This document shows positions 15,356 to 17,573 of a DNA stretch of 46,986 nt, piece after piece. Below the pieces are notes generated by a model, which was not told where the DNA came from, ran no database searches, and saw only the letters and a list, made by a program, of their open reading frames with translations. A program made the translations under genes and the position numbers. The DNA is from Candidatus Poribacteria bacterium (GTDB lineage: Bacteria; Poribacteria; WGA-4E; WGA-3G), in assembly GCA_009845545.1 (NCBI GenBank), contig VXZK01000018.1, positions 1 to 46,986 on the forward strand, given 5' to 3'. The first letter of the stretch is position 1. Every line of letters starts with the position of its first letter.

Positions 15356-15844
15356 AAGAAAGTGTCCGAAAAACTGTGCTACAATACGCAGAAATACCCA
15401 AGCAAAAACCCCAAAATCCGTTGGTAGCAACTTGGGTTAATATTGGAAGATAGTGTCTAAAACGCATCAGTTATTCTCCTCAAGCGAGATGTGGAACATG
15501 CCTTGATCGCGGGTTCCAACGTAAAGTCGATCGTTGCTGGTAACGAAGGAGTGAATTTCGCTGGGGACCTCTGAGGAAAGCGGTTTCCATTTGTTGTGAG
15601 CATCTAAGCGGTAGGCACCGCTATCGCCGACACGGTAGATTGTAGTGCTGTCTGCAGTGAATCTGTTTATGACGGTGGGTATTGCGGTTTCATTGCTGAT
15701 GATCCGCCAGTGTTCTCCAGTTTGTGAGATCAAAACCCCTTTGTCGGTTGCGATACAAATCGTTGAACCTGCGAAGGTAATCTCCTTGAAATACACAATG
15801 GAGATCGGCAGCGTTGACGTGATGTCTTTCCAACTGTCTCCGCC

Positions 15845-16006
15845 ATCAACGGATTGAAACAATTGAGCATTCGGCTTATTGGCGTAGCAGGTTTTAGCAT
15901 CACGGGGTTTAAACACTTTTCCATTTGGCTTACTGGCGTATAAAGCCTTACCCTTAAAGAAGTGAAGCAATTTTCCATTCGACTTACCGGCGTAAACGGT
16001 TTTACC
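15845..16006 (-). repeat. Three 54-bp (18-aa) tandem repeats within the propeller fragment
   Basis: GKTVYAGKSNGKLLHFFK / GKALYASKPNGKVFKPRD / AKTCYANKPNAQLFQSVD. Confidence 0.75.
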
Positions 16007-16260
16007 TGAAACAGCCAAAGCAGATCCCGAATCAATACCGACTAATCCTGTGTCTATCCATTCGGGATTGCCGAGTTTCCATTTGAAAAGCCGCCCCCCG
16101 TATTTAGCGTAAAATGTCCCGTCACCGACAGCAAAGTCTCCAATTTCCGTGCGTTTTTTTCTATATAGACGCAACGCATGTGATGCGGAAGGGTCATCAT
16201 TTTTAAAAGCGGGAACACCGTGTATTGGGATAAGTTCATTACCTGCAGTGGATGTGTGAA

Positions 16261-16290
16261 TTGACAAACACGGTAAAAATGCGGTATAAT
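16261..16290 (+). promoter_or_regulatory. Consensus promoter TTGACA-N18-TATAAT at the left end of the element
   Basis: ttgaca 16261-16266, tataat 16285-16290. Confidence 0.65.
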
Positions 16291-16444
16291 TAGAGTATCC
16301 ATTAGTGGGAGCCAATGCTATCTTTACGAACCTTCGTGGAGTGGCTCCCCGTCCAAATAGCATAGAGGATTTTAGTGGTTTAGTGGAAACTCCGATTTAG
16401 ATACAGATATACCTAAAATGGTGTATATCACCTAAACACAGATT

Positions 16445-16706
16445 AAAGCACTTTACGCTTTCGCGACACATGTCAATTGGGCAGTCGCGTATCAGGGAAT
16501 TCCACAACTAAAAACTTTCCCTGTAGTTGGGTCTGTGGTGCGCCCCGCGGTTGCTTGCATCAACCGCGTCCCTTCGGTTAACAGGTCACCCTCAGGGGAC
16601 TTATGCCGTTGGAGTTCCTATAAGGAACAAAACGCTGCCAGTATGCCTTGTGGGAGGCTGGTCTTCCAAAAGAAGCCCACGCATTTATGCGTCGGGAGTG
16701 CATCAC
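16445..16706 (+). ncRNA. Candidate structured RNA (HEARO/omega-RNA-like)
   Basis: Successive stems: aaagc/gcttt, cgcgac/gtcgcg, cagggaa/ttccctg + caacta/tagttg pseudoknot, cgcggttg/caaccgcg, gtccc/gggac, gttcc/ggaac, cacgcat/atgcgt. Confidence 0.5.
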
Positions 16707-17147
16707 AAATACTCGGTTTGCCCTCCTGAACCGAAATGACATAGAGGAGATTATCGGCAATTGTTAACCTTATGTTATTATAAAAATCGGTATCTAATTC
16801 GGGTGTGTGCTTCTGAGCATTGAAGCGAACACTTTCCCAAGTTTCACCGCCATCACTTGACTGGACAAGGTCTCCCCCAATCTGCTGAGTGGAAAACCTT
16901 TTTTTTTGTGTTTCAGGGGTCGATTTTGGGAACAATCCAGTGGATTCCGAGACGATGATATCAGGTCCCGTTCCAACATAGAGGTGGTTTCTGTCGACGG
17001 TCAAAGCGTAAACAGCACCGGATGCGTCGGTGAGCAATCGTTGCCAGTTCCTTGAACTGAAGCGATAGAGCCCTTGGTTTGTGCCAGCGAATAGGGTGTC
17101 TCCTATTGCAGTGCCTGTATAAATCCGTTTCCCTGCTAATCCGTTTA

Positions 17148-17260
17148 TAGTAAAGCACGAAAATAAGTTGACACTCCACGATAACGTTACCCACTCGTAG
17201 GGGCTGGGTTACCCAGCCCCTACGGTCAACCGCGCGTCTAAATAATTATGGGCTTTACTA
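17148..17260. mobile_element. 113-bp MITE-like element flanked by TA
   Basis: TA-TAGTAAAGCAC...GGGCTTTACTA-TA with central GTAGGGGCTGGGTTACCCAGCCCCTAC palindrome, inserted in the propeller pseudogene. Confidence 0.75.
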
Positions 17261-17573
17261 TAAAGGTGTCCAGTGCTGACCGACATCAGTCGATCGAAAA
17301 ATCCCCTTCTCTTGAAGGGCAAGATACAGCGTTACAGGTGCTTTCGGATCGTGTTTTTGGATTGCCGTTGTGACGATGAGTCCATTTGCGGTCCCTTTCG
17401 GACGCGTTCCAAGGGTGTTCCACGTTTCACCACCATCTTCTGAGGCGAGTGCCTCATCAACGGAGACAGTATAGAGAGTGCCTTGGTGCTCTGCCATAGG
17501 TACTCGGTACTGTCCAGTGGGGATGTCAGCATTAATAAGCGCCCATGTTGCATCGGGGGTCAATTTATCTACT

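Follow-up and report, generated by a model that had tools for sequence, protein, structure and literature searches.

Transposases of the IS605 type use single-stranded DNA hairpins as their substrate, and standalone IscB omega-RNAs without a nuclease gene have been reported. Among TnpB systems, the reRNA of ISDra2 has a 3′ guide arrangement with a guide of 16 nt (PMC8612924), and an Alicyclobacillus TnpB trims its own mRNA to omega-RNA (PMC10278001). Our literature search, which covered mostly papers available without subscription, found no account of elements without tnpB in which a covarying omega-RNA persists, and novelty is accordingly unproven. Here we describe an insertion from Candidatus Poribacteria that, judged from its sequence, is most likely a non-autonomous IS605 element with its own promoter making an omega-RNA-type guide RNA.

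The window, meaning the whole stretch of DNA analysed, comprises positions 1-46,986 of the + strand of contig VXZK01000018.1 (assembly GCA_009845545.1). A beta-propeller gene on its - strand is interrupted by a block of 446 bp, and the features of this region are collected in the table. When the block is omitted, a single open propeller frame is obtained (...EGKPSI-F-HTSTAGNELIPIHG...), which bears out an earlier observation that the frame is lost across it. The boundaries given in the preliminary description, 16260-16708, likewise preserve the frame but exceed the exact block, 16261-16706, by one codon. In at least 12 genomes of the genus, the propeller orthologue is uninterrupted at this place (e.g., ENKPSIFHTFAASDELIPVHG), with the same spacing in most. 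Because these orthologues do not have the segment, the idea that the block is normal propeller coding sequence is ruled out. Furthermore, the joined window sequence aligns with the DNA of eight uninterrupted orthologues without a gap at the junction, and therefore the insertion involved neither duplication nor loss of target sequence. The element is oriented antisense to its host gene. A search of IMG/VR viral contigs with the propeller protein found no relatives.

The same propeller gene carries a second insertion of ~121 bp (window positions 17144-17264). Its ends are imperfectly inverted over 29 nt (TTTATAGTAAAGC...GCTTTACTATAAA), a palindrome (GTAGGGGCTGGGTTACCCAGCCCCTAC) lies at its center, and ~20 near-full-length copies are present in the same genome. 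This second insertion is an ordinary MITE, and the propeller gene is thus broken twice.

Table. Positions of the element, its parts and the interrupted gene within the window.
Feature	Position	Strand	Basis
Propeller gene, 3′ part	15467..16260	-	Interrupted gene; frame and orthologues
Target motif GTGA, possibly GTGAA (NTGA in other copies)	16256..16260	+	Copies and empty-site alignment
Inserted element, left-end-truncated, IS200/IS605-type, non-autonomous	16261..16706	+	Empty site in orthologues; other copies
Promoter-like TTGACA-N18-TATAAT	16261..16290	+	Boxes kept across copies
5′ pseudoknot module, shared with tnpB 5′ leaders in the genus	16295..16388	+	Covariation in both groups
RNA middle part, variable between subgroups, structural support weaker	16389..16488	+	Alignment, consensus fold
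RNA 3′ part, omega-RNA-homologous; matches tnpB gene 3′ ends from GTATCAGGG onward	16489..16706	+	
Domain of model R1, 172 nt; closing helix 16535-16543 / 16698-16706	16535..16706	+	Covariation
P6 hairpin, in tnpB-less copies only among those inspected	16637..16662	+	Covariation
Right-end subterminal hairpin	16676..16695	+	Sequence; copies
Candidate guide segment AAATACTCGGTTTGCC, right flank	16707..16722	+	Position; 16 nt by analogy with ISDra2
Propeller gene, upstream part to second insertion	16707..17143	-	Frame and orthologues

At least 13 further copies, full or partial, are present in Poribacteria genomes. In a BLAST search of the block over 59 related genomes, one genome (G016) had a copy at 91% identity, another (G017) two at 74% and a third (G010) four near 70%, and copies in other genomes were partial; the window's own genome holds the single copy only. 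Named records with the same RNA are from Poribacteria. Pattern matches in Flavobacterium and Bacteroidales are due to chance and are not detected by the covariance model described below. Complete copies are 495-533 bp long, begin directly 3′ of NTGA (GTGA, TTGA, CTGA and ATGA are all found) and finish with the bases CATCAC. Their left end mostly reads AGGGAATT...AACAATCCCAA-hairpin-TTGGGTC. The copies within G010, and likewise those within G017, are 97-100% identical to each other and have different flanks and sites, which indicates recent movement.

The window copy ends in GTGCATCAC at 16706 and is preceded by GTGA (16256-16259), with the promoter-like boxes at the positions first proposed; the "gcgtccctt..." stretch and the terminal hairpin that had been pointed out are likewise present. 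Complete copies have subterminal hairpins at both ends, and the window copy has one at the right end only. Approximately 80 nt between NTGA and the promoter are missing, and the left-end hairpin is gone with them, a loss that the preliminary description overlooked. Because this hairpin is missing, the window copy is probably immobile, and its RNA gene looks intact. Both promoter boxes are retained in nearly all copies, with a spacer that varies. No transposase or nuclease ORF was found in the block, as originally noted, nor any ORF of note, tnpB included, in any copy examined. The copies also have no Y1 transposase (TnpA) of their own and are classed as a non-autonomous IS200/IS605 derivative. 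Thus, the empty site and the copies uphold the proposal of a nuclease-less insertion of this type at NTGA that causes no target duplication.

The parentage of the element can be traced within the genus. Its left end is nearly identical to those of L116, a tnpA+tnpB element, and of the tnpB-only elements L157, L163 and L165. Close TnpB relatives were identified by protein search, and one TnpB of the type with the shared left end (L095) has the Pfam domains OrfB_IS605 and Cas12f1-like TNB. Upstream, homology to tnpB genes continues across GTATCAGGG...CCCTGTAGT and enters their coding region, and a TnpB C-terminal remnant is still readable in frame +1 of the window copy. Given the shared left end, this remnant and the matches of the RNA model to tnpB 3′ ends (see below), the element is most naturally read as the descendant of a tnpB-only element in which the reading frame between the 5′ leader and the omega-RNA was lost.

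For the 3′ domain of the RNA, eight tnpB-less copies were aligned over 56 base pairs, and 96% of cells are paired, with changes on both sides in 23 of the 56 pairs spread over six helices; these counts overstate independence because related sequences are included and the structure was taken from the same alignment. Four of five measures lie above all of 500 shuffles; for the fifth, further pair types, 25 of the 500 attain the observed value. When partners were slid by one to three columns, pairing fell to 38-44%. The closing helix (GUGGUGCG/GUGCAUCAC), which directly adjoins the right-flank DNA, hardly varies, and its support therefore comes from conservation rather than from covariation. The P6 hairpin covaries among tnpB-less copies, and the inspected tnpB omega-RNAs showed no counterpart. 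By folding alone, z is -4.1 on the + strand and -2.2 on the - strand. Together with the strong covariation among relatives, this places the structure beyond chance, in line with the earlier impression of an almost continuously structured block.

We built a covariance model (R1) of the 172-nt domain from the eight tnpB-less copies only, and in many genomes it detects tnpB genes at their 3′ ends, with 35-49 bits (E of ~1e-7 to 1e-13, according to how many bases were searched). This homology favors the suggestion of a structured omega-RNA-type RNA behind a promoter, in its TnpB form. The element is best supported as a variant of the TnpB form of omega-RNA, with a trans-acting role that is putative. 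A more distant solo omega-RNA-like element was also encountered in another genus of the family (G064, L093:1501-1659), where R1 scores 79.7 bits. That element ends in GCGTCAC, and a tnpB-like ORF is absent from the fetched locus.

The 5′ part of the RNA is a pseudoknot module whose pairing was counted by script separately for tnpB leaders and for tnpB-less copies. Across 13 tnpB leaders, the crossing helix is paired in 100% of cells and five of its seven pairs have changed on both sides. The order of strands is the same in the tnpB-less copies, whose alignment is imperfect and shows 79% of cells paired. No Rfam family matched the module in the window. An HDV-like ribozyme was considered and dropped after a check by hand, given that P4 is missing and the strand order does not fit. 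Many tnpB genes of the genus have a conserved, covarying pseudoknot of ~90 nt in their 5′ leader (e.g., L058:5287-5379 on the - strand, L157:2743-2832 on the - strand and L048:2673-2765 on the + strand). In tnpB leaders, its 3′ strand is duplicated beside the start codon (ACTTGAxACTTGATA), and two alternative pairings could be possible.

Partner proteins were sought in the host genomes. The window's genome has TnpA genes and two tnpA+tnpB elements, and 14 of its stretches match the TnpB domain TNB. A search there for a close intact TnpB found none, the best relatives of the L116-type TnpB being ~45% identical. Because this genome and most others are incomplete drafts, a partner might possibly have been missed. 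G016 and G017 have a close TnpB but with in-frame stops. The single-contig genome G010, which holds four copies, has only TnpB fragments (46-49% identical), and no TnpA related to that of L116 was found in it at E≤1e-6; other Y1 transposases are present. Perhaps the element uses a more distant TnpB, or its RNA may do something else with TnpB. As a separate observation, the closest TnpB is absent or interrupted by stops in genomes with the tnpB-less element (G016, G017, G010 and G000), whereas several genomes on the side of G005, G032, G027, G029 and G022 have an intact close TnpB and no full-length element copy. This contrast may be due to chance.

As its tnpB-less relatives show, the RNA-only element lacks a nuclease gene and has nevertheless spread and preserved its fold. 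Starting from the observed mobility, ends, target site, omega-RNA homology, kept fold and kept promoter boxes, we propose a mechanism. A tnpB element would have lost its tnpB reading frame and founded a separate lineage. The conserved promoter would drive an RNA of ~410 nt whose last part is a guide taken from the right flank. The conserved RNA extends to the right end and the candidate guide follows 3′ of it, at the point where the guide starts in TnpB guide RNAs. TnpB made elsewhere in the cell would bind this RNA and cut the empty allele at NTGA plus flank, of which ATGAA-AAATACTCGGTTTG in the L138 orthologue is an example. Repair after the cut would restore the element, and TnpA acting in trans would move complete copies. 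By analogy with the Alicyclobacillus protein, trimming by TnpB might remove the leader of the element RNA, and the P6 hairpin might hinder TnpB binding.

We hold with moderate confidence the reading as a whole, in which the window carries a truncated IS605-type copy that came from a tnpB element, formed its own lineage and has an RNA used in trans. A bolder version is more tentative, and we regard it as possible while leaning against it. According to this version, a protein-free lineage is maintained by its guide RNA alone, borrows both TnpA and TnpB, and has evolved its own RNA parts (the extra hairpin and the retained leader pseudoknot) for competition over TnpB with autonomous elements.

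Other explanations deserve consideration, and the most serious of them is that the element is an ordinary decayed IS605 remnant, a PATE, with ends mobilized by TnpA and a fold inherited from a lost tnpB that is now functionless. In its favor, no intact TnpB is nearby, the genome of the window has just this one truncated copy, and a PATE that includes a short tnpB 3′ end has been described (PMC7290912). However, compensatory changes occur in both the 5′ and 3′ parts of tnpB-less copies that differ by up to ~30%, and they extend to P6, which is absent from the tnpB omega-RNAs inspected. The promoter boxes have also been retained. We therefore consider simple decay unlikely. Less probable still, and rather doubtful in our view, is that the RNA acts on TnpB not as a guide but as a decoy or inhibitor, either by occupying the protein or by competing with autonomous elements. 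Part of one tnpB mRNA does inhibit cleavage (PMC10278001), and both the extra P6 hairpin and the presence of copies in genomes whose close TnpB is absent or broken would suit such a role. Yet the CATCAC right end and the closing helix are nearly invariant at the guide boundary, as a working guide predicts.

It is very improbable that the fold has been kept as single-stranded DNA for a transposase or for replication. G-T pairs form in DNA as well, and IS605 transposases do act on single-stranded hairpins, but the terminal hairpins alone suffice for the transposase, the promoter has been retained, and the interior shows homology to a known type of guide RNA. The preliminary description had assigned the block to HEARO, the IscB type of omega-RNA element, a label that fits the NTGA insertion site and a structured RNA within an IS605-type element. 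We now give this label virtually no credence. HEARO (RF02033) was not matched, and indeed the Rfam search of the block returned nothing at gathering score; its sole matches at E≤10, SNORD100 and STnc310, are at chance level. Moreover, the candidate guide lies on the 3′ rather than the 5′ side, and the homologues are tnpB rather than iscB genes. A mini-IStron, that is, a self-splicing intron with IS605 ends, could likewise be imagined from a structured RNA with such ends inside a gene; this is scarcely credible given that Rfam yields no group I or other intron match and that the element lies antisense to its host gene. The broader proposal of an inserted RNA element had staked itself on covariance of the stems, further genomic copies and orthologues free of the segment, and all three were found, with relatives at 91%, 74% and ~70% in other genomes of the genus and empty sites to match.

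If the proposed guide function is true, the family carries nothing but a guide RNA, which has its own promoter and a structure that has evolved independently. Such a family would parasitize the OMEGA system with RNA alone, and it would be a natural case in which a TnpB guide has parted from the nuclease gene. The element makes it testable whether TnpB guides act in trans and whether RNA-guided retention alone can sustain a transposon in a population.

Among known systems, HEARO and IscB omega-RNAs (RF02033, PMC9755519) share with the element a guide RNA encoded by a transposon, yet they differ in nuclease family, structure, 5′ guide and an iscB gene downstream. PATEs (PMC3119063, PMC7290912) are similar in being short, in having no transposase, in their IS605-like near-terminal palindromes and in causing no target duplication, and the element family falls within their definition (PMC3119063). 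Unlike PATEs, it has a promoter and an RNA of ~410 nt that covaries and is homologous to omega-RNA. TnpB omega-RNAs or reRNAs such as that of ISDra2 (PMC8612924) match the element in the predicted RNA terminus at the right end, the candidate guide from the flank, the subterminal hairpin and the 5′ target motif, and its scaffold is homologous to the tnpB 3′ ends of the genus. The element differs from them in being without tnpB, in having its own promoter and leader module joined directly to the RNA, and in P6. The tnpB-only elements L157, L163 and L165 have tnpB, end in TATCAC rather than CATCAC and have no P6, whereas their left end, promoter position, 5′ pseudoknot leader, omega-RNA core and right-end hairpin are like those of the element described here.
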